The notes under the pieces are model-generated. The model did no database searches. It had not been told where the DNA came from and was given only the letters and a program-made list of their open reading frames with translations. A program made the translations under genes and the position numbers. From Simkaniaceae bacterium (GTDB lineage: Bacteria; Chlamydiota; Chlamydiia; Chlamydiales; Simkaniaceae), in the NCBI GenBank assembly GCA_018399075.1, contig CP073763.1, forward strand, positions 186,001 to 250,000: a stretch of 64,000 nt of DNA, read 5' to 3'. Positions 36,776 through 56,610 of the stretch are shown piece after piece (the stretch's first letter is position 1; the number at the start of each line of letters is the position of its first letter).

Positions 36776-37468
36776 ATGGGAACATTTTTTCAAGCTTATG
36801 CACAAGCTGACTTCTTCGGTAAATTGATTTTTTTTGCTCTTTTTCTCCTCTCATGTGGATCATGGGTTTTTCTTATCCAAAAATTTTTACTATTCAAACA
36901 GATCTCTGCATCAGCTAAACGGTTTAAAAAATTAGCGCTATTACATAAAGAAGAACTCTTAAAGCTCACATCAAAGTCTCACAACCCCTTTAGCGTTTTA
37001 TATAATGCATTGAAAGAACAATCCCTTGTTGTTCTTGATAAGAATCATTATTTTGCCGAACAAAAACAAAACTATTTATCAAAAGCAGATATTGATTTTC
37101 TCGATTCACATCTTCATACAACTATTGCAAAACTTAAAGGGAAAATCGAAAAAAATCTTTTTATTCTCTCAACTACTGTTGCCCTTGCTCCCTTTCTAGG
37201 TCTTTTAGGAACAGTCTGGGGGATTTTAATTTCATTTGGAGAGTTGCAAGCCGGACATTCTGTAACTTCTAATACTGTTATTCTTGGGGGGCTGTCAACA
37301 GCACTTACAACAACAGTATTAGGATTACTGATTGCAATCCCTGCCCTAATTGCAAACAACTACTTAAAAAGTTTGAGCAAAAACTTCACTATCGAAATGA
37401 TTGACTTTAGTCATTTCCTCTTATCGACGATTGAACTTCAATATAGAAAAGTGGATATCACTTCATGA
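36776..37468 (+). CDS. ExbB/TolQ-type proton channel subunit
   Basis: A 230-residue inner-membrane protein with three hydrophobic helices. The last two contain LFILSTTVALAPFLGLLGTVWGILISF and TALTTTVLGLLIAIPALIANNYL, the MotA/TolQ/ExbB signature. With the ExbD-like partner it uses the proton motive force to energise envelope work. Whether it acts as ExbB or TolQ is not decided by sequence. The context, tolB and pal downstream, favours a Tol role. ATGA overlap with the next gene. Confidence 0.93.
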   Translation: MGTFFQAYAQADFFGKLIFFALFLLSCGSWVFLIQKFLLFKQISASAKRFKKLALLHKEELLKLTSKSHNPFSVLYNALKEQSLVVLDKNHYFAEQKQNYLSKADIDFLDSHLHTTIAKLKGKIEKNLFILSTTVALAPFLGLLGTVWGILISFGELQAGHSVTSNTVILGGLSTALTTTVLGLLIAIPALIANNYLKSLSKNFTIEMIDFSHFLLSTIELQYRKVDITS

Positions 37469-37890
37469 AACGGTCCCTTTCTCTTTTAAATTCTGACTTC
37501 GAAGAAGATGCAAACGTCAATCTTACACCGTTGATTGATGTTGTCTTTGTTGTTCTCATCATGTTTATCTTAGTTGCTCCATTAGTAGAGATCGACCGCA
37601 TTCATTTAGCAACATCAACAGCAGAAAAAAAAGCAGATATGACCACTTTTCAGGAAAACAGTGAACTTAAAATTCATGTCTACAAAGATAATACTATTTG
37701 GCTCAATGGTGTCCCCCTTTCGATTGATGAACTTAAAGTTCACCTCATCCAATTTCGCCAAGTAAACAAAGACGTTTGCCCTCAGATTTTTCATGATCGA
37801 GAAGCCTTTTTTGGGACCTACCAGTCGGTGAAAAATGCAGCAGAAGCTGCTGGCTTCGAATCGCTTGATGTTATACTTCACCCGGGGTAA
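37465..37890 (+). CDS. ExbD/TolR-type proton channel subunit
   Basis: A 141-residue protein with a cytoplasmic N-terminus, a single helix VNLTPLIDVVFVVLIMFILVAP containing the proton-carrying Asp (LIDVVF), and a periplasmic domain ending DVILHPG. Starts by ATGA overlap with the ExbB-like gene, so the two are translated together. Completes the proton motor for the Tol-Pal-like system. Confidence 0.93.
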   Translation: MKRSLSLLNSDFEEDANVNLTPLIDVVFVVLIMFILVAPLVEIDRIHLATSTAEKKADMTTFQENSELKIHVYKDNTIWLNGVPLSIDELKVHLIQFRQVNKDVCPQIFHDREAFFGTYQSVKNAAEAAGFESLDVILHPG

Positions 37891-37893
37891 TCG

Positions 37894-38514
37894 ATGAATC
37901 GAAGACTCCTTATTTTAACAGGATCAGTCGTAGCTGTTCACCTCATCTTTTTCTTTTTTGACTTCAAAAATAAAAGTCGCCCTCCAACACCAAAAAAATC
38001 GATTGTTGTTCACACCTTTACCCCTCGTCCTCCCCCAAAACCAAAAGTTGTCCAATACTCACCGGCCCCATCAAAACCAACTAAAAAAATTGAGAAAGCT
38101 AAACCAAACTCCCTTTCGAAAAAAAATGAAATTCTTAAGGAACTTAAAGAGTCTCTAACAAAAATTGAAAAAACTGCGCCTCCTGAACAGAAGAGTGTGT
38201 TAACACTTCCTAAGAACATCCAATCTCTGCAAATTGATCAAACAGAACAAGACGAAAAAACCAATTATTTTGTCCTTTTAGCGCAAACTCTGAAAGAAGA
38301 GCTTGAACTTCCAGAGTATGGCGATGTAAAATTAGAACTAACGGTCCTAAATAGTGGAAGAATCTTAAAACTTAGAGTTCTTGCAGCGGCCTCTGAAAAA
38401 AATCAGAAGTACCTAGAAATCAACCTCCCAAGGGTGATTCTTCCCCCTTTTAATGAGGACCTAAAAAATGAACGAGAACATACATTTACACTAACATTTT
38501 GCAATGAAAAATAA
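37894..38514 (+). CDS. TonB/TolA-like periplasm-spanning protein
   Basis: A 206-residue protein: one N-terminal helix (LLILTGSVVAVHLIFFFF), then a Pro/Lys-rich stretch (residues 30-75, with PPPKPK) and a short C-terminal domain of about 80 residues with KLELTVLNSGRILKLRVL, like a reduced TonB C-terminal fold. It lies exactly where tolA or tonB would be, between the proton motor genes and tolB. I assign it the coupling role by position and architecture. Overlaps tolB by 11 bases. Equivalent to the unknown gene between exbD and tolB in Chlamydia. Confidence 0.75.
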   Translation: MNRRLLILTGSVVAVHLIFFFFDFKNKSRPPTPKKSIVVHTFTPRPPPKPKVVQYSPAPSKPTKKIEKAKPNSLSKKNEILKELKESLTKIEKTAPPEQKSVLTLPKNIQSLQIDQTEQDEKTNYFVLLAQTLKEELELPEYGDVKLELTVLNSGRILKLRVLAAASEKNQKYLEINLPRVILPPFNEDLKNEREHTFTLTFCNEK

Positions 38515-39796
38515 GCTTCTTTTCCTATTTCTTTTTTTCTTTACTCTTCACGCCGAAGAAAAAGAAATTATCATTCCCCTTTCAACGCGAAATTTTTTAA
38601 CTTCAGTTTATGTTTCTCCCTTAACATCATCAAACTTTTCCGAAGATTATTTAGAATCACTCCGAACGATTTTAGTTTTTGATCTTAATACTAATGGAAG
38701 TTCCCATGTCGAAAAAAAAGGAAACAACGACTTTAATATAGACATTGATATTACTGGAAAAGACCTTTCGGCCCTTATCCTTTATGCAAGAGGAGGCATT
38801 ACAAAAACGCTTGGTCCTTATCCTCTTTCTGGAAACCTTTCATCAGACCGCCGGTTAATTCACCAATTTGCTGATGACTTAACCTTAATCATGACAGGAA
38901 CACGGGGCGTGTCAAATTCAAAAATAATTTTTGCCATTCAATTTCCAGAAAAAACGCCTCACGGTTACGATTATAAATCTGAAATTTGGGAAATCGATTA
39001 TGATGGAGAAAATAAGAGGCAAGTGACAAGGGAAAATAGTTATTGCATTACCCCCGTATTCTTCCCCACATTAGGCCCTTTTACTGAAAATAAATTTCTC
39101 TACGTCAATTATAAAAAAGGGCAGCCAAAAATTTATCTCGGTTCTTTTGAAGATAAGAAAGGCGTTCCCCTTGTTTCACTCAGAGGAAACCAACTTCTTC
39201 CTGCAATCTCAAAGAGGGGAGATATGATTGCTTTTATCTGCGATGCGAGTGGAAGAGCCGACCTTTTTGTTCAACTTTTTAGCAAGTCACATGGGCTTAT
39301 GGGGAAACCCATTCAAGCCTACTCTTACCCAAACTCAGTTCAAGCCTCTCCTACATTCCGCCCCGATGGGAAAAAGATCGCCTTTGTTTCTGATAAAAAC
39401 GGAACCCCTCGAATTTTTATCATCGACACCCCTTACCCTGGAAGAGATGTAAAACCAAATCCACTATGTATTACAAAGAAATTTCGCCATAACACCTGCC
39501 CAAGTTGGTCTCCCGATGGAACAAAATTAGCGTATAGTGCTATGATTGACGGGACCAGGCAGATCATGGTATATGACTTTCTGACGAAAGAAGAGATCCA
39601 GTTGACCACGGGGAGTAGTCATAAAGAAAATCCAACGTGGGCACCAAATAGTCTTCACCTGATCTATAATACTGTAGACCCTTCTTCTTCGGAGTTGTTT
39701 ATAGTTAATTTGAAACAAAAAGACGTGATGCAAATTACAACTGGACCTGGAAAAAAACATTACCCCGCATGGGAACCAACAAGAGGGCCTCTATGA
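38504..39796 (+). CDS. tolB: TolB beta-propeller protein
   Basis: A 430-residue periplasmic protein with a signal peptide (MKNKLLFLFLFFFTLHAEEK), an N-terminal alpha/beta domain and a C-terminal six-bladed beta-propeller. The repeats are visible as YKKGQPKIYL, SPTFRPDGKKIAFVSDKNGTPRIF, CPSWSPDGTKLAYS and NPTWAPNSLHLIYN. TolB interacts with Pal and TolA in outer-membrane maintenance. ATGA overlap with pal. Identity is secure. Confidence 0.95.
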   Translation: MKNKLLFLFLFFFTLHAEEKEIIIPLSTRNFLTSVYVSPLTSSNFSEDYLESLRTILVFDLNTNGSSHVEKKGNNDFNIDIDITGKDLSALILYARGGITKTLGPYPLSGNLSSDRRLIHQFADDLTLIMTGTRGVSNSKIIFAIQFPEKTPHGYDYKSEIWEIDYDGENKRQVTRENSYCITPVFFPTLGPFTENKFLYVNYKKGQPKIYLGSFEDKKGVPLVSLRGNQLLPAISKRGDMIAFICDASGRADLFVQLFSKSHGLMGKPIQAYSYPNSVQASPTFRPDGKKIAFVSDKNGTPRIFIIDTPYPGRDVKPNPLCITKKFRHNTCPSWSPDGTKLAYSAMIDGTRQIMVYDFLTKEEIQLTTGSSHKENPTWAPNSLHLIYNTVDPSSSELFIVNLKQKDVMQITTGPGKKHYPAWEPTRGPL

Positions 39797-40479
39797 AGAA
39801 ATTATCTTGGGCATTTGTGCTATCATCAGCCATTCTATTTACCGGATGTCAAAGCAACTCCAACACTGTTTGGGAGGATACCAAAACAATGGGGCGCTAT
39901 CTCCATAGACAAGGACAACTTCTTTGGAAGCAAGATGCCGACTCACGAATGATCGATTCTGAAGATGAATTTGTTGGACCTCAAGAGGAAGAGTATGTTC
40001 CTCTAAAGGATGAAGATCTCAAAACACAATTTGCCGACCATAGTATTCCTCAACCTAAAGAGGTTCCTGGAGCAATTGGAAGTAGTATTCCAAGCATAGA
40101 ACATTTTTCAAAACCAACATCTCAATTGGCAAATCTTTTCCAAAACGTTTACTTTAAAACAGACCAACATTCTCCAAAATCGGATCAAGACAGCAAAGTC
40201 CTTTCCTATATTGCCGAGCATATGAAGAAGAATCCAAATATTTATGTGACTGTTGAGGGCTATTGCGATGAAAGAGCTTCAGAAGCCTACAACCTTGCCC
40301 TTGGAACGCGTCGTGCAAACGCCATTCGTAATCATTTAATACAAAAAGGGGTCAACCCTAATCATATTTTCCCAATCTCTTATGGTAAGGAAAAGCCTGC
40401 GGAGCTTGGTCATACAGAAGAGGTATGGGCAAAAAATCGACGGGTAGAATTTAAGATTTATGAAAAGAAGGGTTCCTAA
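39793..40479 (+). CDS. pal: Peptidoglycan-associated lipoprotein Pal
   Basis: About 228 residues from the ATG at 39793 (ATGA overlap with tolB). Signal peptide with lipobox LFTGC. After a Glu-rich spacer of about 90 residues comes an OmpA-like domain containing TVEGYCDERASEAYNLALG-type residues, RRANAIRNHLIQKG and KNRRVEF. It binds peptidoglycan and tethers the outer membrane. The spacer is longer than in enterobacterial Pal (about 150 residues in mature form there). Confidence 0.94.
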   Translation: MKKLSWAFVLSSAILFTGCQSNSNTVWEDTKTMGRYLHRQGQLLWKQDADSRMIDSEDEFVGPQEEEYVPLKDEDLKTQFADHSIPQPKEVPGAIGSSIPSIEHFSKPTSQLANLFQNVYFKTDQHSPKSDQDSKVLSYIAEHMKKNPNIYVTVEGYCDERASEAYNLALGTRRANAIRNHLIQKGVNPNHIFPISYGKEKPAELGHTEEVWAKNRRVEFKIYEKKGS

Positions 40480-41112
40480 ATGAAAAAGTATTGTCTCCTC
40501 CTCCCTGCAGTTCTCTTAACCGGCTGTGGTTCCATGAGCTCATCAAAAGGAGAAAAACATCAAATGGAGCTTAGTCTTCATAAGGTGCGGACAGAAGTGG
40601 AAGATATTAAGCATGAACTCAATACCTATGAAATTGAACATCATGTCATCGAAGGAAAGCTGATTGATCAGGAGCAGACAATCGCCTCACTCAGACAGCA
40701 AGTCGCTGAGCTGAAGTCAGGTAAGCTCGACTCTTTTGTACAAGAACTTCAGAATTTAGAAAAGAAGCTCCAACAAGTTTCAAAGAAACAAGACAAAATT
40801 GTCACTGATATACGCCAACTCAGCTCACATGCTAATGACACCACAACAGCCCTTTCTCAATATAAGGACAAGATCGCCCAGTTTGAAAAAGCAATCCAAG
40901 GACAAAATCTCCAACTTCAAGAAATTTCAAAAATCAAGGAAGGGATTACTAAGCTTTCGCAGGCAGAAAGCTCTAGAACCTACTCTGTGAAAGCTGGGGA
41001 TTCTTTAGAAAAAATCGCTCGCGATCAAAAAACAACCGTTGAAGAACTCAAACGGCTCAACCAAATGACCACCGATCTCATCGTCATTGATCAACTCATA
41101 AACCTCCCATAA
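40480..41112 (+). CDS. LysM lipoprotein with coiled coil
   Basis: A 210-residue protein starting directly after the pal stop. Signal peptide with lipobox LLTGC; residues 30-165 form a long coiled coil; the C-terminus has a LysM module (YSVKAGDSLEKIARDQKTTVEELKRLNQM). LysM binds peptidoglycan, so this probably bridges the outer membrane and the cell wall or septum. A similar LysM gene follows pal in Chlamydia. Confidence 0.88.
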   Translation: MKKYCLLLPAVLLTGCGSMSSSKGEKHQMELSLHKVRTEVEDIKHELNTYEIEHHVIEGKLIDQEQTIASLRQQVAELKSGKLDSFVQELQNLEKKLQQVSKKQDKIVTDIRQLSSHANDTTTALSQYKDKIAQFEKAIQGQNLQLQEISKIKEGITKLSQAESSRTYSVKAGDSLEKIARDQKTTVEELKRLNQMTTDLIVIDQLINLP

Positions 41113-44822: not shown

Positions 44823-45446
44823 CTATCCTTTAATCAGCATTGCAATTTTATAAACTGTCTCTGCTCGCTTAAAGTTACTTCCTTTAACAAGAATAGCTCC
44901 CAGCGCTAAAACATAAATAGCATTTAGCAATGTCTTAACTCTTTGATCTTGATGAGCAATAACCGTCGCAGCGCATGCCACCACCGTTACCGTTGCTTTC
45001 ATTGTTTGACCTCGTCGGTAGTCGAGATAAACAAGTCCTATCTGCGTAATGATCAAGATAACTGGAGCCATCCGAGAAATCAAGACAGGCAAGCGTGAAT
45101 CATGATCCTTCGAATTGTTCCTTCCACCACACCCATATCCAGATGTATCTTTTGAGCCACTTGGGCCAGAAGCAAGGGCAGAAACTCCATGAATAAACAA
45201 GTGTCCGATGCAAAGCATCTTGACTTTTCCAGGCTGAAGCCAATAGCTTCCATATTCTGAATGAGCCATTTCAGGAATGGCATTCAAGGCTCGAAAAGCT
45301 TTGTAATAGGCCTTTGTCGTCGGAATAACTAAGCGTGCAAAACTATTGAATTCCTCGTGGTTTTTATTCCTTTTCGTAGCACTATAATAGGTGTCTATGA
45401 TGGAGCGACCACTAGCGATCCCCAATGCGATAGGTAATAAACTCAT
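44823..45446 (-). CDS. Unknown polytopic membrane protein
   Basis: About 207 residues from the ATG at 45446 with GGGAAG upstream; an upstream Met 12 codons earlier lacks such a site. Four or five hydrophobic segments, mostly in the C-terminal half (APVILIITQIGLVYL and TVVACAATVIAHQ), after an N-terminal soluble part with GYGCGG near the middle. I do not recognise the family. It has a good promoter on the minus strand and diverges from an M48 protease gene. Confidence 0.65.
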   Translation of the reverse strand: MSLLPIALGIASGRSIIDTYYSATKRNKNHEEFNSFARLVIPTTKAYYKAFRALNAIPEMAHSEYGSYWLQPGKVKMLCIGHLFIHGVSALASGPSGSKDTSGYGCGGRNNSKDHDSRLPVLISRMAPVILIITQIGLVYLDYRRGQTMKATVTVVACAATVIAHQDQRVKTLLNAIYVLALGAILVKGSNFKRAETVYKIAMLIKG

Positions 45447-45487
45447 TTTTCTTCCCTTTTGTAAGAATAATTTTTTAAACATGAACT

Positions 45488-45516
45488 ATTATACATATGA
45501 ACAAAGAAAAAGCCAA
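45488..45516 (-). promoter_or_regulatory. Promoter of the polytopic membrane protein gene
   Basis: On the minus strand TTGGCT (45516-45511), 17-base spacer, perfect TATAAT (45493-45488), about 40 bases before the ATG. Confidence 0.55.
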
Positions 45517-45610
45517 CGTCAAAACGCTTAATTAAAAGTTTTTTTATGTTTTTATTTACTCTCTATACAATTATACTCTTTGTAACATTCATAACTTGAG
45601 AGAAGGGAAA

Positions 45611-46447
45611 ATGAGTCTACAGATCCAGCCGGTTTCGACTTTCCAACTCTACCGTCTATTATTAAAAGAGTATTATACGCAAGAAGTTCCTCTTCGCCTC
45701 GTTGATGTCACGTCTCACTTTTTTCCTTTTACAGCCCCTTTCTGGGAGAGAGTCATCGGTTGTTTTAAAGGAAAGCAGTTTGAGTTACTAACGCTAGAAA
45801 CCCTTAAAGAAGAAAAATGGGCACAGCTCAACCAAACCATTCAACAAGTCAAGGAGATGTTTGGCTTGGAGGATGAAATCCTTATCGCCAAAGACCTTTC
45901 AGCCAAGATCCATAGCTATGCTATTACGGGCAATATAATCATAGTTAATGAAAAAACAGCTTTTTCTTTTACACAAGAGAGCCAAGCATTTGCTATTGCC
46001 CATGAACTCTCTCATTATTCCCATGGTCACCTAAATAAACGGACCTACTTAAACTTAGTCTGGATTGTGATTGATCTATCTTTTCTCTCTTTAGCTCATT
46101 ATCGATCACGTCTTTATCTTGTTGCATTCGTTCTTGCAGAGATTGGAATCTTTCATCTTGATCAAGCGGTCAGTCGGATGCATGAAAAAGAAGCTGATCT
46201 AACAGCTATTGAAAACCTGGGGGCAAATCATGGCGCTAAAGAATTCTTTTTTCTCAATCTAGCCTTTGACGCGCTCCATTTTCTAGAAGCAAATAAGATT
46301 CAATTTCCTAGACAACCTAATATAGAAAAGTCAATTAGCACTCTTTTCAAGATTGGTATCGCTCTTGAATCAGTGACGCCAGTTAAGCTTGCTTTGTCCC
46401 ATCCAACCCATGTAGAGCGACTTCAATACTGCTGTATAGAAGAGTAA
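45611..46447 (+). CDS. M48-type zinc metalloprotease
   Basis: A 278-residue protein from the ATG at 45611, with AGAAGGGA just upstream; an in-frame TTG is possible earlier. Zinc site AIAHELSHYSHGH near residue 130 and the third ligand Glu in HEKEADLTAIENL near 195 are the M48 pattern. The C-terminal HPTHVERLQ also fits M48. Two hydrophobic stretches separate the motifs, so it is probably membrane associated. It lacks a signal peptide. The substrate is unknown; M48 enzymes often handle membrane or damaged proteins. Confidence 0.85.
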   Translation: MSLQIQPVSTFQLYRLLLKEYYTQEVPLRLVDVTSHFFPFTAPFWERVIGCFKGKQFELLTLETLKEEKWAQLNQTIQQVKEMFGLEDEILIAKDLSAKIHSYAITGNIIIVNEKTAFSFTQESQAFAIAHELSHYSHGHLNKRTYLNLVWIVIDLSFLSLAHYRSRLYLVAFVLAEIGIFHLDQAVSRMHEKEADLTAIENLGANHGAKEFFFLNLAFDALHFLEANKIQFPRQPNIEKSISTLFKIGIALESVTPVKLALSHPTHVERLQYCCIEE

Positions 46448-46527: not shown

Positions 46528-46555
46528 TTGATAAATATCTGATCGTGAGTATAAT
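46528..46555 (+). promoter_or_regulatory. Promoter of the TPR-VWA-rsmD operon
   Basis: TTGATA (46528-46533), 16-base spacer, perfect TATAAT (46550-46555). Transcription would start about 75 bases before the ATG, leaving a leader with a hairpin. Confidence 0.7.
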
Positions 46556-46565
46556 CAAAAAATAC

Positions 46566-46603
46566 TTCGCATGATAGAGCTATGATTGCTCTTCCTTTGC
46601 GAA
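46566..46603 (+). promoter_or_regulatory. 5' leader hairpin of the TPR-VWA operon
   Basis: Outer stem TTCGCA/TGCGAA (46566-46571 with 46598-46603) and inner stem AGAGC/GCTCT (46576-46580 with 46588-46592), separated by 4- and 5-base internal loops. It lies right after the predicted transcription start. Confidence 0.5.
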
Positions 46604-46637
46604 TCAATTCTAACATAACTGATAGGGACAAACGGAT

Positions 46638-49487
46638 ATGTTTCATTCAACTTTTCGCATTTGCTTAATACTTAGTGCATCATTCATGACTTTTGGTCTT
46701 TCTCAAGGAGAGGCAAAACAAGTAGTAAAAACAACGCAAACACAATCTGATGAAGAAGCTTTCCTCATTCGACGTATTGCAGAATTTTGGAAGGATGGCG
46801 ATTTTGCAATCGTTAAAACCCAAATCGTTGATTTTTTAGACAAATATCCAGAAAGCACTTTGAAAGATTATTTTATTGGGATTTTAGGTGATATCTATCT
46901 CCAAGAAAATAACTACACTCATGCTTTATCCACCTATCAAATGGTGAGCGATCCGGCTGTCAGTGAGAAAACCCTCCTTAATAAGCTTCAATGTTACTAC
47001 GAGCTTGATATGTTTAGCGAACTTGCAAAAGATGGACGTCCCTACCTATCTAGCAATGCTGCTGAAATTCAAGATCGAAAGGAAGAGCTCTATTTCTTAA
47101 TGGGAGAGGCTCTATTTAGACAAGCGCTGCTATCAGAACAAGCCGAAGAAAAAATGACACTGGCGCGAGAAGCACGAGGCTATTATGAAAGTCTTCCAAG
47201 CGGACAATATAGTGAAATTTCTGAGTTTGCCATTGCAGAAATCTATGCCATGCTTGGCGAATATGAAAAAGGGGCAGCAGCTTACAAACAGCTTGCTGAA
47301 AAGCATTCTCATATGAAAGAGGACCTCCTCTTTCAAGTGGCTTCTCTTGAAGCAAAATATAACAAACTAGGTGCTGTTGAAACATTCAGAAAAGTAAAAG
47401 AAATGGAAGGGAAAAGGGCAAATGAAGCCGCCTTTAACTTAATGGCCCTTCTTTTCCAAAATGAAGAATATGAAGAGGTTATTAATAGTTATGGAGTCAT
47501 CACAGCAAGTGTCCCTGACGATTACATGCCTACCTTTAATTTCATTGTAGGAAAGAGTTACTTCTCTATGGGACAATATCAAAATGCTATTGCTCCCCTC
47601 CAAAAGTATATCGATTCAACCTACATCCCATCAGATCAACTAAAAAATGCCCTTCTCATTCAAATGACCTGTGCTCATCAGGTTAGCGACGAAGCCCTCT
47701 TTAGTGGTTCTTTTGATAAACTCGATTCACTCTTTCCAGATGATCAAGAGATTCCTAAAGCCCTCTTTATGCATGCTATGATCCTCAAAGAACAAGGGGC
47801 GATTAGTAAAGCAGATGAAAAACTCAAGCTGATCAAAGACAATTACGTAGCCTTTGATAACCAAGAAAGTTTTATTTTCGAGTATGGTCTTTTAGCTCAT
47901 CAAAATGAGCGTTGGAAAGAAAGTTATGACTCTTTTAAGTCCTATGTCACGGACTTCAAGGATAGCTCACGCATTGACGCAGCCTGGAAACTCTTTCTCT
48001 CCTCTTCACTCAATCTATACAAACATAGCAGCGAAGAAAGTGGCTACTCTAAATCAGACTTCTTTAACGATCTACAAGCTGTTTTAGCGCACTCTGATTG
48101 CTTAAATGACAATGAAATGAAAGACTACTCTCTCCTTTATGCAAAAACAGCCTATGAGCTCGACTACTATTCTGAAGCACTCCACTGTTTACAAGATCAT
48201 ATTTTTACAAATATTGTAGATGAAGAAAATCCTATGGTCCTTGCTGAGGCTCATTTTATTGCTGGTCTTTGTCATGCAGAAACTAGAGCTGATAACTCTG
48301 CATTCTGTATGCATTTAGAGCAAGCGATGGCACTTAACCCTGATCTATATGATTCTCCATCAACACATCTGCAGCTTTACAATGCTTATATCTCCCTTGC
48401 TGGGTATGGAGAAAGTGGAGAAATCCCAGCAGATGGCGTGCAACAAAAAGAGTTTGTCAGCTTTGCTGCCGAGCACCTAGAAGAGGCCTCTTCAAGAGGG
48501 ACCATGGCAATTAAGGAAGAAAATCGCCTTTGGCTTGCAAACCATTATTATCAAAAAGTAAAGGACTATTACAACGGACATTGGACAACGCAAAATGGCC
48601 CTCACCCAGAGGTTACCAATGCCACTGATCGTGCAAGTTCTCATTATCAAACACTTCTTCTTTCAAATAACAAACTCATCGAAATCTCTCCTGAAAACCT
48701 CCACCTTGAAAATGAAGTGATTAAACTTTCAAAACTCCTTGCCTACCAAAATGCTCATAAAGAGAAGCTAGACCTTCTTAAACAACTTTTAGAACAACAA
48801 AGTGGAAAAATGGAACTTAATTGGTCTTCTCAAAAAGAAGCGCTTTTTGAACTAGCCACTGTTTATGATTCCTTAGGTGAAAAGGAAAAAGCGTTTGAAA
48901 CCTATAGTTTCATTCATGCCTCTGCCAATCATTTTCCTACTACCCTGGCAAACCATGCAACGCTTGAGGCTGCACGGATCCACTTTGAACTCCTTGAAGA
49001 GGGGCTAAAAAGTGAGACCAACGAGGAAGTCCTCTCTATTTTAAATGATTTAAAAGAATTGCAAATTCGTAAAAATGCAAGTTCTGAGCCGACTCATTTA
49101 GAGGCTGCTCTTGAATATGCAAAGATTCGCTCACTTATCTCTGAAAAAGCTGAGCAAGATACCCGTTACCTCTTCTTTTTAGATCGTATCAAAGATGACT
49201 TTACCTCTCAGGAAGACTTAGTTACACAAGATTATCTTGTGAATCTCAACCGGGATACATCAAAGAAACAGATTTTCGATGCTTATATGAAGTTTATCGA
49301 TGCTGAAAAGATGCGCCTTGAGGCAAAAAGCCTTTACCAACAAGAGCGCCTAGGAGAAATGGAAGAGCTTCATGAAAACGCTCTTGCACTCTATAGCGAA
49401 ATTAAAAATAATCCCAATACTCCTCGCGATCTTTATGATCGCATTGGTGGGAGTGTAGAAGAAATTAATGCTCTTAATGCTTACTAA
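46638..49487 (+). CDS. Large secreted TPR protein
   Basis: A 949-residue protein with a signal peptide (MFHSTFRICLILSASFMTFG) followed by almost continuous helical repeats. TPR-like units are visible, for example LGDIYLQENNYTHALSTYQ, YAMLGEYEKGAAAYKQLAEKH and ATVYDSLGEKEKAFETYSFIH. Such proteins bind other proteins in the periplasm or at the outer membrane. It is the first gene of an operon with a giant VWA protein, so the two may form a complex. No enzymatic motif. Confidence 0.85.
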   Translation: MFHSTFRICLILSASFMTFGLSQGEAKQVVKTTQTQSDEEAFLIRRIAEFWKDGDFAIVKTQIVDFLDKYPESTLKDYFIGILGDIYLQENNYTHALSTYQMVSDPAVSEKTLLNKLQCYYELDMFSELAKDGRPYLSSNAAEIQDRKEELYFLMGEALFRQALLSEQAEEKMTLAREARGYYESLPSGQYSEISEFAIAEIYAMLGEYEKGAAAYKQLAEKHSHMKEDLLFQVASLEAKYNKLGAVETFRKVKEMEGKRANEAAFNLMALLFQNEEYEEVINSYGVITASVPDDYMPTFNFIVGKSYFSMGQYQNAIAPLQKYIDSTYIPSDQLKNALLIQMTCAHQVSDEALFSGSFDKLDSLFPDDQEIPKALFMHAMILKEQGAISKADEKLKLIKDNYVAFDNQESFIFEYGLLAHQNERWKESYDSFKSYVTDFKDSSRIDAAWKLFLSSSLNLYKHSSEESGYSKSDFFNDLQAVLAHSDCLNDNEMKDYSLLYAKTAYELDYYSEALHCLQDHIFTNIVDEENPMVLAEAHFIAGLCHAETRADNSAFCMHLEQAMALNPDLYDSPSTHLQLYNAYISLAGYGESGEIPADGVQQKEFVSFAAEHLEEASSRGTMAIKEENRLWLANHYYQKVKDYYNGHWTTQNGPHPEVTNATDRASSHYQTLLLSNNKLIEISPENLHLENEVIKLSKLLAYQNAHKEKLDLLKQLLEQQSGKMELNWSSQKEALFELATVYDSLGEKEKAFETYSFIHASANHFPTTLANHATLEAARIHFELLEEGLKSETNEEVLSILNDLKELQIRKNASSEPTHLEAALEYAKIRSLISEKAEQDTRYLFFLDRIKDDFTSQEDLVTQDYLVNLNRDTSKKQIFDAYMKFIDAEKMRLEAKSLYQQERLGEMEELHENALALYSEIKNNPNTPRDLYDRIGGSVEEINALNAY

Positions 49488-49511
49488 GAAGAGCTAAGAA
49501 GAGAGATCTCA

Positions 49512-52500
49512 ATGAAGACGGTTTCCTCCTCTTCCCATACGAGCAAGCGACTAAGAAATTTATTAGTCGCTTTGCTCCCACTTATTTGTGGCAAACTATC
49601 AGCAGAGGAAACTTTCCACACCTTAATTGCGCAGCAAGTGGCTTACCAAAACCAGGAGATCCTCCCCCAAATTGAAGAAACACAATTCTCCTTAGAACTC
49701 ACCATTCCTTCCCTAGCAACAAGTCTTGATTATGACTTAATTCCCCCTCCATCCTTTACCCTTGATCCGATTACTCCTCACCTTCTAGAAGAAGAGTACA
49801 TGACTCAAAAGAGATCACCGTTTAGAGCTAAAAAAACAATTAACTTTAGTAAAGAAATTGCCCGAGACGAAAAAGAGGAGCTAGCCCCTTTACCTTTTAT
49901 TACTGAGAAAAATGGAGATCCTTTAATCGTCGATCCAAATCTCGAGGAAAAAAAAGAAAAAAAACATGACTTTTTATCAGATGAACTCCCTTTAAATATT
50001 GAAGGTCGCTCTTATGATAGATCAGCTCCTTATGCATTTAAGCAATCCAGAAAAGATTCTTCGTCTCTTATCAATCGCGATTTTTCTCATAAAAAATCGG
50101 AAGCACACATTGGCTCATCATTAAAAGAACTTAAAACATCTCACCCCACTCAATCGTTTGTTTCCCTGGAAAAGAGAAATGACTATACCCCTATTCCAAT
50201 GAGTGTTGAGGTTCACAAACAACATTTTGATACTGATAACTTTTTTTTCTCCTTCGAAGATTCCTTCCCTTACACACCTCCCTATTCTCTAGACAATACG
50301 TTTGTTTTTACCGAAAAACTTTCCAGGGACTACTCACCTCCTGAAAAGGAGAATCTATCTGGAAACTGTTATTTTGCAGAAAGCTATTTTAAATCCTTTC
50401 AATGGACGGATGTTTCAAAAGTTAGTGAACAAAAAGCCCAAGCTCCACTCCATCCTTCTCTTGAAGAAATGAATGGTTATTTAGCAATCAATGAAATGAA
50501 CGTTAGTTTAGAGATTTTTTCAGATAACTCGCAATCTTTGGGATTTGATGACATTCCCCACTCGATTGATTTTCCTTATCAGTCGCATAAAATCGGGAAA
50601 AAGGTGATTGAAAATTCTCCTTTAGATTTGAAAAATTTTGAAGGGACTTCTTATCTCTATGTTAAATCCTATGTACCCCTTGAACCCCACTTCCACTACT
50701 ATCCTACTAGAGAAAAAGCCACCCCTCTTCCTTCTAGATATTCCTTATCGGAAGGACCAACTTTGGCTATGGAACTCGAACAGGAAGTGATCTCTTTCAC
50801 TCTGACCCCTCAATTTGATCTATACTGCTTTGAGGACTCACTACCCCTCCCTAAAAAAGCCCAAGAGTTTCAAGAAAGCGTCTTAGCTGTTATGCACCCC
50901 TATCTCTATATGGAAGCTTATGAAAGTTCAGAAAAAAATGAACCTACCCCAAAACCTGAGAAGCAGGAAGCTCTTGCATTCAATGAAACAATCGAAGACT
51001 TAAACCTCAACCCTAACATTGCTTCTTCCGCACCCCTTACAATTGAGAAGAAAAAAGATGGTCCTGTAGACATCATTTCTCATTCTATTGAGTTCCCTCA
51101 TGGAAGCGCCTCTTCTTCTATGAAATTCTCTTTAAAGGAGGATCTCTACCTAAATTCAGCAACTGAAGAAATTGAGATAGCTTCTAAGCTTTCCCCCTCA
51201 CATGAAGAGGCCCTTTCTCCAATTTTTGATTCTAAACTTGATTTAGAAATTTCCACACAAAAAGAGCTTCAAGCCCTTGCATTTGCAAATGAAGCTGAAT
51301 CATTTGATCCTACCATCAAGCACCCCTCTTTTCCTAAACATCACAAAAAGGATCTTTCATCACAGCTAAAAATCAAAAATTCTTTCAAGGGTGACGGAAA
51401 AGAAGTGACTGAAGACTTTGCTACGCAAAATCATTACTCTCCTTCTATACAAAAAATACAAAAGTCATTCTCAAAAACTCTTCCAAATTTTTCTCTTCCA
51501 AAATCAGAAATTCCCTCTCCATCTTTCAAGGGTGATGAAAACATTGCAGTCGCAATGAGGGGTTCTGAAATCGATTATGAAAAATTTGCAAATATGGAGG
51601 CGGGAAAATCAAATCTGAATGAACTTTCTCTTCCTTATGTTAGAAAAAAAGAGATCACTCCGATGAAGGGGGGGACGAAACCAAATAAGGTCGCTGAAGA
51701 TATTCCTGGTATTGAGTCTATAGCGCCATTGGTTGAAAGGATGGATTCCTATTCTAATGAAATGGCCGCTCTTGCTGCCCCTTCAAGTGAAAACAACTTA
51801 ACTGTAGAAAGTACCCATCCTCTTCATAGCCCTTTGCGTCCAGCTTATTATCCTCCAGAAGTTCCTGGACTAGAGATTGCTGCCAACACTCCTTCAATGA
51901 GAGAAAAACATCTCGAGTATGTGAAAAAAAAGACAGCCCCCTCTGCTGTCACTCCCGATGAATTAAAACTCCCCTTCGTTGCAGGAAAAAGGATCATTCC
52001 GAATAAGCCTTTAATGACACCTAAAAGGGCCTTTGAAGACCTTCCAGAAGCAGATAAAGTGATTGGACTCGCAACGCGAGAAGAAAACTTTCCTAATACT
52101 CGTGAAATCCTTGAAAGACACCCATTCCCTCTCAGAATCAAATCTGAGCTAACCATTTCGGAAGGGGAAGCTCCCCCCTTAGAAACGGAAATGATCCGCT
52201 CACAATCAAAAGAAATCCTCGACGATTATATTGAGGAAAACCGCCTTTCAGCTGGGTTAATAGCTCTTGCAAAACCTGAATTAGAAGGGCCTCCCTCAGA
52301 GTCTGAGACTAGAAGTCTTAATCAGTCAAACCGCTTTACACGAGCCTTTCTTACAGAAATCCCTCCTCCATCAAACTTAGAAACTGTCTCCTATAATAAT
52401 GAGTTCAATACCGATGTTCATTATTCGAAGAGAGAAGATGGTAAAGGCTATCTATTTTCTATAAAGATGAAGCCCGGCGAGAAGCTCCACTTTGCCTCTC

Positions 52501-53417
52501 CAAACCAACATTTTATTTTTGTGATAGATGGATCTAGTAGTATTAAGAAACACCGCTTTGGGGTCTTTAAAGAAGGTGTTGGACGTGCACTTTCTTACCT
52601 GGGAGAAGGAGATTCCTTTAATATCGTCGTTGCTGACGCAGAATTGACTCCTTTCAGCAAAACACCGACTTCTTGGAGTGAAGAGTCTTCAGCTAGAGCA
52701 AAACGGTTTTTAATCGAGCGGAATTACCGTGGATTCTTTATTAATTATAATGCTTTTGATCTCTTATCCAATGTTTCAAATTACTTTTCTCCTGATAAGG
52801 AGAATATCGTTGTCTTGATTACAGATGGTCACTCTTTTAAATCTATTAATGACCATAAAGAAGACTTCAAAGAGCTTGTTACTGAGAGCAAAGGAAAATT
52901 CTCTGTCTTCACTGCAACTGCAAGTCAAGGAAATAACCTTTCAATGCTTGATCTTTTGAGCACCTTTAATAACGGGGAGCTCATGTACTCAAAGACAAAT
53001 GCTTCTTTTTCACGAAGGCTTTCTGTCCTTGTTAAACATATTGAGTCGCTTGTTGCCAAAGATATCCATGTGAATGTGACGAGTATTAAACAAGAAACGG
53101 GAATTGAATTTTATCCTAATGAGTCGACCCTTCCTTCTCTTTATGCTGATCGCCCCTATACTGTTTATGGTTCTATCAATGAGCTTAAAGACTTTGATCT
53201 TATCCTCCAAGGGCGGTGTGGGGAGCAGTGGATCAATATTAAACAATCGATCTCCTTTAAGCATGCCCAGAAAGCAACCCATTCTATTAAGAAAGGAATA
53301 GCTCTTCAAAAGGCCTATGTCTGCTATGACTACTTCTTGAAAAATGATGATCCCTTCTTCTTAAGGGAAGCTCAAATCATCTTAGAGCCACATAATGTTC
53401 CTTCTGCAGTACGATGA
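49512..53417 (+). CDS. Giant secreted protein with C-terminal VWA domain
   Basis: A 1301-residue protein. The N-terminus has a hydrophobic segment (LLVALLPLICGKLSA near residues 18-32), suggesting export. About 950 residues follow that are Ser/Pro/Glu/Lys-rich and look disordered, with weak internal repeats. A von Willebrand factor A domain spans about 1000-1170: the MIDAS sequence is FVIDGSSSIKK, with NYNAFDLL and VVLITDGHSF further on. VWA domains bind proteins through a metal ion. Partner of the upstream TPR protein by operon. ATGA overlap with rsmD. Confidence 0.8.
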   Translation: MKTVSSSSHTSKRLRNLLVALLPLICGKLSAEETFHTLIAQQVAYQNQEILPQIEETQFSLELTIPSLATSLDYDLIPPPSFTLDPITPHLLEEEYMTQKRSPFRAKKTINFSKEIARDEKEELAPLPFITEKNGDPLIVDPNLEEKKEKKHDFLSDELPLNIEGRSYDRSAPYAFKQSRKDSSSLINRDFSHKKSEAHIGSSLKELKTSHPTQSFVSLEKRNDYTPIPMSVEVHKQHFDTDNFFFSFEDSFPYTPPYSLDNTFVFTEKLSRDYSPPEKENLSGNCYFAESYFKSFQWTDVSKVSEQKAQAPLHPSLEEMNGYLAINEMNVSLEIFSDNSQSLGFDDIPHSIDFPYQSHKIGKKVIENSPLDLKNFEGTSYLYVKSYVPLEPHFHYYPTREKATPLPSRYSLSEGPTLAMELEQEVISFTLTPQFDLYCFEDSLPLPKKAQEFQESVLAVMHPYLYMEAYESSEKNEPTPKPEKQEALAFNETIEDLNLNPNIASSAPLTIEKKKDGPVDIISHSIEFPHGSASSSMKFSLKEDLYLNSATEEIEIASKLSPSHEEALSPIFDSKLDLEISTQKELQALAFANEAESFDPTIKHPSFPKHHKKDLSSQLKIKNSFKGDGKEVTEDFATQNHYSPSIQKIQKSFSKTLPNFSLPKSEIPSPSFKGDENIAVAMRGSEIDYEKFANMEAGKSNLNELSLPYVRKKEITPMKGGTKPNKVAEDIPGIESIAPLVERMDSYSNEMAALAAPSSENNLTVESTHPLHSPLRPAYYPPEVPGLEIAANTPSMREKHLEYVKKKTAPSAVTPDELKLPFVAGKRIIPNKPLMTPKRAFEDLPEADKVIGLATREENFPNTREILERHPFPLRIKSELTISEGEAPPLETEMIRSQSKEILDDYIEENRLSAGLIALAKPELEGPPSESETRSLNQSNRFTRAFLTEIPPPSNLETVSYNNEFNTDVHYSKREDGKGYLFSIKMKPGEKLHFASPNQHFIFVIDGSSSIKKHRFGVFKEGVGRALSYLGEGDSFNIVVADAELTPFSKTPTSWSEESSARAKRFLIERNYRGFFINYNAFDLLSNVSNYFSPDKENIVVLITDGHSFKSINDHKEDFKELVTESKGKFSVFTATASQGNNLSMLDLLSTFNNGELMYSKTNASFSRRLSVLVKHIESLVAKDIHVNVTSIKQETGIEFYPNESTLPSLYADRPYTVYGSINELKDFDLILQGRCGEQWINIKQSISFKHAQKATHSIKKGIALQKAYVCYDYFLKNDDPFFLREAQIILEPHNVPSAVR
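51618..52088 (+). repeat. Degenerate repeat pair in the VWA protein
   Basis: Two segments about 113 residues apart (51618-51749 and 51957-52088) share the pattern (N/D)EL-x-LP(Y/F)V-x-x-K-x-I-x-P, then P-x4-EDIP or EDLP, then I-x2-L-x2-R. Both are about 44 residues long. Identity is partial, so the duplication is old. Confidence 0.5.
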
Positions 53418-53965
53418 GAATTACTGGCGGTTTTCTAAAAAATCAATCTCTTAAAACTCCAAAAGGGGATAAAACCCGACCTACCTCTGAAAAGCTACGA
53501 CAATCGGTTTTTAACATTGCCCAAGCATATGTCGACAATTGCGCCTTTCTTGATCTCTTTGCTGGATCAGGGGCCATGGGAATCGAAGCTTTGAGTCGTG
53601 GAGCTAAAGAAGCAACATTTATTGAAAAAAACCGAGCAGCTCTTAAAGTCCTTAGAGAAAACTTGCAGGATCATGATCTCTTACCACTCTCAACTCTTCT
53701 TGCTGGGGATGTTTTAACGCTCTTAAAGAAGTTGAAGGGGAATGCCTTTGATCTTATCTATGTTGATCCTCCTTATGAAAAAGGGCTCCAAGAGAAAACT
53801 TTGGTTTTAATCGATCATCTTCATCTTCTCCATATCGGAGGCCTTCTATTTATTGAAGAGAGCTCTCAAAACGAATTGAAGATCCCTCCTCTTACAAACA
53901 TTGAATTAAAAAAGAAAAGGAAGGTGGGTAGCACCTCCCTTTATGAATTTATCGGGAAACTTTAA
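53414..53965 (+). CDS. rsmD: 16S rRNA (guanine966-N2)-methyltransferase RsmD
   Basis: Methylates G966 of 16S rRNA. The 183 residues show the N-terminal MRITGGFLKNQSLKTPKGDKTRPTS-like RNA-binding region, the SAM motif LDLFAGSGAMGIEALSRGA and the catalytic (D/N)PPY as VDPPYEKG. Starts by ATGA overlap with the VWA gene, so it lies in the TPR-VWA operon. Converges with the MORN-repeat gene, overlapping 17 bases. Confidence 0.95.
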   Translation: MRITGGFLKNQSLKTPKGDKTRPTSEKLRQSVFNIAQAYVDNCAFLDLFAGSGAMGIEALSRGAKEATFIEKNRAALKVLRENLQDHDLLPLSTLLAGDVLTLLKKLKGNAFDLIYVDPPYEKGLQEKTLVLIDHLHLLHIGGLLFIEESSQNELKIPPLTNIELKKKRKVGSTSLYEFIGKL

Positions 53966-56561
53966 CCCCATTTTCATAACGCGTTTCTATGACTTTGCCA
54001 TCTTGATCGTAGCTTTTTTTCACTCCATTAAGTTTACCATTAACATAGTGCTGTTCTAGACGAGGCTTACCGGTATCATAGTATTTCATGAACTTTCCAT
54101 GCTGGTTTCCATCTTTGTATTCGGCTTGGAAAATTAAGTTTCCTGATTCGTTCCAATGTTCAGCTTTTCCTTCAAGCTTTCCATTTTTATAAGGATAAAC
54201 ACTATTTAAGCGACCATCTTCAAAGAAGGTTTTCTCTTTTCCTTCTTTCTGGTCTTTAACAAATCCAACTTCTTTGTAAATCTGACCTGACGGATAGTAT
54301 TGATAGGAATCTCCTTCCCTTAAATCATTTTTAAATATCAACCGAATGGCTGTCCGACCATTTCTATGGAAAAGCTCAGCTTCTCCATCTTTCTTTCCAT
54401 CATTATATGTGGTGATACTAATCTTATTACCACTTGGATCATATTCGGTCACAATGCCATGAATCTTATTGCTTTTATAAGATCCCTCGATGGCCTTAAC
54501 TTTTTCCCCATCAGTTACATCAAGGGGATAGTAGATATAGTGAGGGCCTTCTCTTTTATTATTCTTATAGTGATAAACGATTTCTCGCCCTTCTTGATCT
54601 TTTTCAAAATGGCGCCCTTCAAGTTTTCCATTCACATATTTTGATTCTTCAAGGAGGTTCCCTTCTTGATCCCAAAGTCCTTTTAAGCCATTAAGTTGAC
54701 CATTGTCATAACCAATGAGCGTCTTTACAACTCCATTTGGATAATAGGATTTTTGTTCACCATGAAGCTCTCCTTTTTCATTATGGAAGTAGTGGTTAGA
54801 GACTATCCCTTTCTTCCCATCTGATGGTGGATAAAACTCTTTCTGCGCACCTACAGGCTTTCCTTCTTTCGCATTTCTGATAAAAGCTTCACTTCCATCT
54901 TCAAAATAACCTAAGGCCTCTCCTTCGACAAGATCGTTTTTAAAAGTTTCACTTAGCTTCACTTGTCCATTTTGATAATACTGTTCATGCTTTCCTTCTC
55001 TTTTCCCATCAAGAAAGTGGAAGACCTCAAATTTATTCCCTGAATCGTAATAAGCTGTGTGGGTTCCAATAGGGTTATCTTGATCAAAGGCCCCTTCAAA
55101 GAGGAGGGTTCCTTCTTGATTCCAGGATCTAAACGTTCCATCTTTTTTGCCCATTTCGTAGCGAGCTTCAACAGTGTGCATCCCATCTTCATACCAATCG
55201 TTCTGGTCACCATTAAACAGAGAATCTTTGAAATTTCTCTTTGTTTTTATCTGACCATTTGGATACCAATCGGTAAATTCTCCATTGCGATTTCCTTCTT
55301 TGAAACTCCCTTCGAAAGCAAGTTTTCCATCTTCATACCACTCTTGGAAAACCCCATTTTTTAACTGGTTTTTATAGCTTCCCTTAAGCTTAACCTGGCC
55401 TGATGGAAAATATTGGGTATAGTCTCCCTCAAGTTCACCGTTCACATAATAACCATCAGTTTGAAGTTTCCCATCAGAAAACCATGATTGAAATTTTCCA
55501 TGGAACTGGTCTTCTTCATTTCTAGAATATTCAGCAATCTTTTGACCATTTTCATCAAACTCTCGAATCGGTTCTTTTAAAGCCCCTTTTTTATCATAAG
55601 TTGCAAGGAAAGCCATGGTTCCATTTTCATGCTTTCTCCAATGCTTTCCAATCATCTTGCCCTGAATGTATTCTCCCTCGCCAACAACCCGTCCATTAGA
55701 GTCATACCAGCGTTCTGTTCCATCTTTCTTTCCGTTCACATAGCGGACATGATAGCTTTGGCGTTCATTAGGGTGATACTGGATATGATCTCCATGAAGA
55801 ATTCCTTGATTATAGTCTTGTACTTCAGTGATCGTATGATTTTCATCATAGTGAATGATACCCGGTAAATTTTTCGCTGAATGGAGTTTTCCTTTTAGAT
55901 AATAACATTCTGTTTTCTCATTCCCATTCTCATACCACTCAATCATTTTACCATGGATCTCTCCCTCAACATAAGGAACGAGAACTTCTCTTTCGCCACT
56001 AGAGTAATAACGGATATAGTCTCCCTCTTGCTTTCCCTCTTCGTATTGGCCTTCAGCTAGAGTTTGACCATTCTCATGGTAAGAATAAATCTTCCCTTCA
56101 GGCTTTCCTTGATTAAATGTGGTTACATGATGGAGCTGTCCTTTAGGATAAAAGATTTTCATCGGACCATGAAGAAGCCCATGATCAAAATAACCTACTC
56201 TTTCAACTTCTCCTGACTCCCGAAAATGTACACTGACTCCATGAGGGACAATGGTTGACTTCCAAGCTTCATAACCTGCAGATTTTTCATCAACAGTAAT
56301 GAGATCCGTCTCTTCTTTTGGACGCCCATTTTCAAAAAACTGAATCCGCTTTACAGGTTCTTCAACTCCTGCATCATTTTCATTATAAAAGACAACAAGC
56401 TGAGGGGTTCCACTTTGAAACTGCTCTACAATAGAGGGTCGCCACTCTGGCATTCTCACTTGAAGTTCTGTTGCTACTGGAACAACTTTATTTTCATTAT
56501 TTTCTTGAGAAAAGAGAAGAGTTGGCAAAAGTGCCAAAGCAAAAAGTAGTCTTTTAGTCAT
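53949..56561 (-). CDS. Secreted protein of about 30 MORN-like repeats
   Basis: About 870 residues from the ATG at 56561 (GGTGAT upstream; another ATG lies 4 codons earlier). Signal peptide MTKRLLFALALLPTLLFSQ. From residue 100 to the end, about 30 tandem units of roughly 23-26 residues follow the pattern (Y/F)-x-x-G-x-x-x-G-x5-(Y/W)-(Y/F)-x-x-G-x, of the MORN_2/YwqK type, such as YVNGKLEGR and FKEGNRNGEFTDWYPNGQIK. These form a long open beta array. Export and size suggest a surface or secreted adhesin-like or structural protein. Two palindromes lie upstream. Confidence 0.85.
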   Translation of the reverse strand: MTKRLLFALALLPTLLFSQENNENKVVPVATELQVRMPEWRPSIVEQFQSGTPQLVVFYNENDAGVEEPVKRIQFFENGRPKEETDLITVDEKSAGYEAWKSTIVPHGVSVHFRESGEVERVGYFDHGLLHGPMKIFYPKGQLHHVTTFNQGKPEGKIYSYHENGQTLAEGQYEEGKQEGDYIRYYSSGEREVLVPYVEGEIHGKMIEWYENGNEKTECYYLKGKLHSAKNLPGIIHYDENHTITEVQDYNQGILHGDHIQYHPNERQSYHVRYVNGKKDGTERWYDSNGRVVGEGEYIQGKMIGKHWRKHENGTMAFLATYDKKGALKEPIREFDENGQKIAEYSRNEEDQFHGKFQSWFSDGKLQTDGYYVNGELEGDYTQYFPSGQVKLKGSYKNQLKNGVFQEWYEDGKLAFEGSFKEGNRNGEFTDWYPNGQIKTKRNFKDSLFNGDQNDWYEDGMHTVEARYEMGKKDGTFRSWNQEGTLLFEGAFDQDNPIGTHTAYYDSGNKFEVFHFLDGKREGKHEQYYQNGQVKLSETFKNDLVEGEALGYFEDGSEAFIRNAKEGKPVGAQKEFYPPSDGKKGIVSNHYFHNEKGELHGEQKSYYPNGVVKTLIGYDNGQLNGLKGLWDQEGNLLEESKYVNGKLEGRHFEKDQEGREIVYHYKNNKREGPHYIYYPLDVTDGEKVKAIEGSYKSNKIHGIVTEYDPSGNKISITTYNDGKKDGEAELFHRNGRTAIRLIFKNDLREGDSYQYYPSGQIYKEVGFVKDQKEGKEKTFFEDGRLNSVYPYKNGKLEGKAEHWNESGNLIFQAEYKDGNQHGKFMKYYDTGKPRLEQHYVNGKLNGVKKSYDQDGKVIETRYENGVKVSR

Positions 56562-56610
56562 GATGATCACCATAAAAATTTTTTTCCAGTATAACCGAAA
56601 TCACCATTTA

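Follow-up and report, generated by a model that had tools for sequence, protein, structure and literature searches.

Two large adjacent genes in the genome of a Simkaniaceae bacterium, one for a TPR protein and the other for a protein with a C-terminal VWA domain, raise the question of what their products do together in the cell envelope, and whether that work is powered by a motor. The genes lie in the window analyzed here, a stretch of 64,000 nucleotides (positions 186,001 to 250,000 of contig CP073763.1), and named relatives put the genome among the Simkaniaceae, close to 'Candidatus Neptunochlamydia'. An earlier note on this DNA knew of no described system of such form. That view does not hold, since vWA force transducers, whose PVC genes typically have a TPR gene as neighbor, were proposed in 2025 by Williams-Jones et al. 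for PVC and other phyla (PMC12204202). The proposal rested on architecture, synteny, and structure models, with no deletion phenotype reported, and the Chlamydiota are not included in its list for the family (PMC12204202). Our own literature searches on VWA in Simkania, on VWA and TolQ/TolR/force, and on VWA and TonB/ExbB/TPR gave no result. We consider it probable that the TPR-VWA pair represents a chlamydial branch of these proposed periplasmic transducers, motor-driven in the majority of lineages, and uncoupled but kept in the lineage of the window.

The three ORFs of the earlier note are present on the plus strand (Table 1), and the near-consensus promoter that it placed before them has likewise stood up. 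The promoter is the sole match within 9 kb that exceeds the 9-of-12 background, and it is probably real because its TTGATAAATATCTGA-N3-GAGTATAATCAAAAA footprint is kept 5' of the TPR gene in most congeners and in one neighboring genus. The two-part hairpin described in the leader did not survive comparison: its stability in the window is mild (z −2.4 to −2.9), but the leaders of nine relatives fold no better than shuffled sequences (z about 0 to −0.7), the stretch between the promoter and the ribosome-binding region is not conserved among the relatives compared, and the leader matches no Rfam family. Because the promoter is conserved and neither the sequence nor the fold of the leader is, we accept the operon and reject a structured leader RNA. 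We also reject RsmD as a functional member of the system. It is found in 222 of 234 Chlamydiota genomes, with or without the pair, and is a linked housekeeping neighbor outside the mechanism.

Table 1. Features of the TPR-VWA locus and its conserved neighbors, in window coordinates.
Feature	Position	Strand	Remark
Tol-Pal cluster: TolQ, TolR, TolA-like protein with transmembrane His, TolB, Pal, LysM protein	36776..41112	+	conserved upstream neighborhood
Sigma-70-type promoter TTGATA-16-TATAAT of the TPR-VWA operon	46528..46555	+	11/12 consensus positions
Leader hairpin of the earlier note, probably not functional	46568..46606	+	folding z, nine relatives
TPR gene, 949 aa, signal peptide, predicted periplasmic TPR solenoid	46638..49487	+	
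VWA gene, 1301 aa	49512..53417	+	ORF
VWA N-terminus, signal-peptide-like, in place of the S-x3-H motor-binding helix of relatives	49512..49608	+	
VWA linker, proline-rich (9%), fast-evolving, predicted disordered from composition	49609..52334	+	
VWA C-terminal module: VWA domain and flanking β-domain, inter-alpha-inhibitor heavy-chain-like fold	52335..53417	+	
rsmD, 16S rRNA G966 methyltransferase	53414..53965	+	NCBIfam TIGR00095 above cut-off
MORN-repeat secreted protein, 874 aa, conserved convergent neighbor of TPR-VWA-RsmD	53949..56573	−	

The TPR and VWA genes, which the earlier note took for one conserved envelope system and proposed to check by co-occurrence, do travel together in other Chlamydiota. 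Among the 234 genomes, 128 have both, 5 only VWA, 13 only TPR, and 88 neither. Sixty annotated regions from across the phylum were compared, and in all 56 that hold both genes VWA lies directly 3' of TPR on the same strand, usually overlapping it or within 30 bp (median gap 2.5 bp; an exact 4-bp overlap in 15 of the 56). This order is far beyond chance. RsmD follows next in 49 of the 56 loci. Over a longer stretch, the genes run Tol-Pal cluster, response regulator, MFS transporter, glycine-zipper protein, small TPR protein, TPR, VWA, RsmD, MORN protein, and T2SS genes, which leaves the pair flanked by the operons for Tol-Pal and for type II secretion. The pair is absent from the Chlamydiaceae-like group f4 (genomes shown in the survey) and from most of the large-genome chlamydiae of group f22.

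The TPR protein has TPR repeats throughout, and its model (pLDDT 82) is a single long solenoid of helices, for which a fold search returned only generic TPR solenoids and suggested no partner. Like CpoB/YbgF, it appears to be periplasmic, is encoded near the Tol-Pal cluster, and partially matches tol_pal_ybgF (TIGR02795; E 4e-12 to 2e-16). It differs in being an all-TPR solenoid of 949 residues with an obligate VWA neighbor, and its score of 46.6 bits stays below the cut-off of 90.1.

In the VWA protein, VWA_3 is matched above the Pfam cut-off over residues 1002–1155. For the AlphaFold2 model of the C-terminal module (pLDDT 87, pTM 0.85), the solved structure with the best coverage is inter-alpha-inhibitor heavy chain 1 (6fpy; Z 22.2, 4.3 Å over 315 residues), and a sequence profile matches the same type of chain (E 4e-25). 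The predicted likeness to inter-alpha-trypsin inhibitor heavy chains and to 'marine sortase target' proteins lies in a VWA domain followed by a β-domain (TIGR03788 positions 242–516). However, the protein of the window scores 65.8 bits against a TIGR03788 cut-off of 551.65, the VIT part is unmatched, and no sortase signal was noted. A plasmid search gave only distant VWA proteins from rhizobia and other alphaproteobacteria (20–24% identity), some of them annotated as 'marine sortase target'. The description of the domain as metal-binding finds partial support: the DxSxS loop and the loop-3 Asp of the MIDAS are present, but the loop-2 Thr is missing from the window copy and is not conserved in the family, where the Asp is found in 127 of 127 sequences, the two Ser in 110 and 94, and the loop-3 Asp in 89. 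The linker before the module is poorly conserved throughout the family, with about 9% proline and a length of 63–880 residues.

The N-terminus is where the family divides. Most VWA homologues start with a single hydrophobic helix bearing S-x3-H, for example LLAACLIASVGIHCLALLAIY, and [STAG]-x3-H occurs in 94 of the 122 complete N-termini (92 by script once G209, whose apparent transmembrane His was taken as part of a signal peptide, had been set aside, plus G033 and G181, which the script missed on account of one charged residue and which were added by eye). By the script, Ser occupies position −4 in 78 of the VWA N-termini, versus 4 of the 344 other hydrophobic N-termini encoded in these loci. 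In TonB and TolA, the SHLS motif binds ExbB or TolQ and is needed for stator binding (PMC8928145); S-x3-H corresponds to the N-terminal half of this motif, which is the half that our evidence covers. Behind the helix, where the proposed vWA transducers have a motor-box β-strand, 50 of 121 sequences match a loose E-x-[FLM]-x2-hydrophobic pattern. The motor-bearing relatives resemble TolA and TonB in topology and in the S-x3-H helix; they differ in ending with an inter-alpha-inhibitor-like VWA module instead of a TonB/TolA domain, and a search of the whole window genome at E 0.01 gave no hit to PF03544, the C-terminal domain of those proteins. The window copy differs further: its N-terminus, MKTVSSSSHTSKRLRNLLVALLPLICGKLSAEETFH, resembles a signal peptide, and its hydrophobic stretch carries no His.

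The earlier note was probably right to expect an exported VWA protein, and the signal-peptide-like N-terminus invites the idea that the window species secretes the pair as a surface or adhesin complex, possibly through the neighboring type II secretion system, whose genes lie downstream. The resemblance of the VWA module to inter-alpha-inhibitor heavy chains and other binding VWAs would suit such a role. Against it, a TonB/TolA-type helix appears to anchor most homologues to the inner membrane, with the VWA module on the periplasmic side, so the system is not primarily the surface complex that the earlier note had in mind; the T2SS neighborhood is kept where VWA is anchored as well, and no surface anchor, sortase signal, or β-barrel was noticed. 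We regard secretion to the surface as unlikely.

A helix with a stator-binding signature calls for a motor, and the candidate is exbB2-exbD2, a two-gene operon beside trmB, and in several lineages also beside upp, unlinked to TPR-VWA. ExbD2 has the conserved Asp of ExbD/TolR, and ExbB2 profile matches occur in 100 of the 234 Chlamydiota genomes. ExbB2 is present in 81 of 94 genomes whose VWA helix has the His and in 0 of 28 whose helix lacks it, counting G033 and G181 as moved by eye (79 of 92 and 2 of 30 by the script before that). Within the Simkaniaceae, two PF01618 genes were found in all six His-bearing genomes with complete N-termini and in none of 14 without His, the others having at most one; ExbD2 occurs, among 27 Simkaniaceae, in exactly those six. 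Many of the genomes are MAGs, so that absence calls may be gaps. Thirteen His-bearing genomes have no detected ExbB2, and many of these are incomplete, but G161 and G201 are 94% and 97% complete. Conversely, 14 genomes with ExbB2 have no detected VWA; a profile search of these gave no clear VWA homologue, and several are fragmented or keep TPR. Weak TonB_C matches in 23 genomes lie only beside tolQ (TolA), and the TonB_C model, which a divergent client could escape, revealed no further client of the TonB type for ExbB2. ExbB2-ExbD2 is likely the dedicated motor of the VWA protein.

The Tol-Pal motor TolQR could instead drive the protein, now or formerly, as a second TolA in outer-membrane constriction, with the TPR protein as a CpoB-like helper. 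In many lineages the pair does lie downstream of the Tol-Pal cluster, the TPR protein matches tol_pal_ybgF (below the curated cut-off, as given above), and SHLS helices can cross-couple to another motor (PMC8928145). The VWA His, however, tracks ExbB2 instead, and sharing of TolQR is the less likely because TolQ persists in genomes whose VWA protein has lost the His, while in the window TolA keeps a His helix of its own. We hold this arrangement to be quite unlikely.

Phylogenetically independent pairs were counted on trees that leave out the N-terminal helix. The TPR tree gave 4 or 5 pairs in the same direction and the VWA C-terminal tree 4 to 7, with none opposed in either; with so few pairs, the sign test gives p between 0.016 and 0.125 (median 0.03). 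On a loss-only reading, which assumes that the His and the motor were both present at the root, the nine clades with loss of the His are the same nine with loss of the motor; besides these, three single genomes have lost the motor but not the His. Presence of the motor at the root is supported by the shared trmB synteny.

Two genomes still carry the place of the loss. The window genome, one contig of 1.91 Mb, has a single PF01618 gene, the TolQ of its Tol-Pal cluster, and its trmB adjoins upp, exactly where exbB2-exbD2 sits between trmB and upp in G220 and the Simkania-like G230. In G207, where the VWA helix has Tyr in place of His, the gap between trmB and upp encodes MDSIQIDLYQLFFSAEEGVKVTPIFERRK, in which one part matches MESINIDLTQVFSA at the start of ExbB2 and another EEGFHVYPVYEKK at the end of ExbD2. 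At the junction, MDSIQIDLYQLFFSA runs directly into EEGVKVTPIFERRK, fusing the start of one protein to the end of the other, and MDSIQIDLYQLFFSAEEGVKVTPIFERRK is, from its sequence, a deletion scar of exbB2-exbD2.

The association of His and motor might still be indirect, with ExbB2-ExbD2 serving an unrelated client and both traits decaying in reduced genomes. Many of the genomes are indeed reduced MAGs, and a loss-only reading makes genome-wide decay plausible. Yet the complete absence of the motor from the 28 genomes without His, the agreement of the loss partitions in nine of nine clades, and the failure to find another TonB-type client argue against it, as does the comparison of G220 (2.1 Mb) with the window genome (1.9 Mb), which differ in both traits with no marked difference in size. 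An indirect link is, in our judgment, improbable.

Loss of the motor has left the pair under strong purifying selection, with dN/dS of about 0.05–0.08. Between motorless relatives, the values are 0.066–0.078 for TPR and 0.052 for the VWA module, compared to 0.074 and 0.061 in a motor-bearing pair; all are rough, the synonymous distances being near saturation. We lean towards the view that, in several chlamydial clades, TPR-VWA has repeatedly lost its dedicated motor and the docking His together and has been kept under unchanged purifying selection in a non-energized role.

Computation gave the pairing of the genes, the signature in the helix, the co-occurrence with the motor and the loss of both, the empty site and the scar, the selection, and the folds; we infer that the VWA protein is exported and acts in force transduction, that TPR binds it, and that ExbB2-ExbD2 drives it. 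In the model that we propose, the ancestral and majority form of the VWA protein would be anchored in the inner membrane by its TonB/TolA-type helix, and the His of this helix would dock on the proton-driven ExbB2-ExbD2 motor encoded between trmB and upp. The proline-rich linker would cross the periplasm. With the TPR solenoid holding or positioning it, the VWA module would grip a partner at the peptidoglycan or the outer membrane, so that movement of the motor could be turned into pulling. In the window lineage, the motor operon is gone and a signal-peptide-like N-terminus has taken the place of the anchor, and because of these two changes the pair probably works uncoupled, as a strongly selected periplasmic scaffold or binding complex that presumably binds the same target passively.

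How, then, does the chlamydial family relate to the proposed vWA force transducers? Most of its members share the N-terminal S-x3-H helix, and the family has in common with the transducers the proline-rich linker, the C-terminal vWA, tolQ/tolR-like motor genes in the genome and, in each of the 56 loci, a neighboring TPR gene. The published loci, in contrast, have a linked tolQ and a pair of tolR-like genes, whereas the candidate motor of the Chlamydiota is encoded elsewhere in the genome with a single ExbD-like gene, and several clades, including that of the window, lack motor and His yet keep TPR-VWA. The window copy itself has the linker, the vWA fold, and the TPR neighbor but not the SHLS/His helix, of which 94 of 122 relatives have the S-x3-H part, and the candidate motor is absent from its genome. 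On account of the unlinked motor, its one ExbD-like gene, and the lack of an SHLS/His helix in the window copy, we liken the chlamydial family to the transducers, by its architecture and TPR partner, as a related variant and not as a plain member. A Bat-type aerotolerance complex (BatA/BatB VWA proteins with a TPR protein), which the combination of VWA and TPR and the presence of BatB structures among the fold matches might recall, is rejected as exceedingly improbable, given that BatD (PF13584) was found in none of six genomes tested, including that of the window, that the topology differs, and that the closest fold matches are inter-alpha-inhibitor chains.

If the model is right, a periplasmic transducer exists naturally in matched powered and unpowered forms, and closely related pairs of the two, for example G220 and either the window genome or G207, are available for comparison. 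It would also provide comparative genetic evidence for motor-driven vWA transducers and would mean that target function is separable from energy input. Co-loss of a motor operon and one motor-binding residue is evidence of a kind independent of that behind the 2025 proposal. The Chlamydiota also gain a conserved envelope system, although the survey detected it in none of the Chlamydiaceae-like genomes that it showed.

Several further observations concern the neighborhood and the distribution of these genes. Most f22 genomes have two MotA/ExbB/TolQ genes, yet neither the described type of ExbB2 nor TPR-VWA; since both are missing, their second motor must serve another client. The MORN-repeat protein, which partially matches the Leptospira adhesin model LIC20035 below its cut-off, is in view downstream of TPR-VWA-RsmD in 42 of the 60 loci. 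In the window, a 219-aa ORF on the minus strand and a 283-aa M48-like peptidase on the plus strand (44823–46447) separate the small TPR gene from the TPR-VWA operon, and the other Simkaniaceae loci examined have different inserts or none at this place. In 21 loci from many lineages outside the Simkaniaceae (for example L109, L119, L129, and L132), a protein of 300–340 residues (cluster x310) is encoded on the opposite strand directly 5' of TPR, where it shares the TPR promoter region. Single in-frame TGA codons occur within the TPR or VWA homologues of G130, G137, and G168, and may reflect sequencing error, a frameshift, or decay. Finally, about 7 kb before the window lies a further VWA gene (G000:C1:178638-179105, L384; GTG start, product of 374 aa), which is of another VWA family, marked by a canonical DTSGSM motif, is convergent with a secA-like gene, and adjoins a 318-aa ORF.
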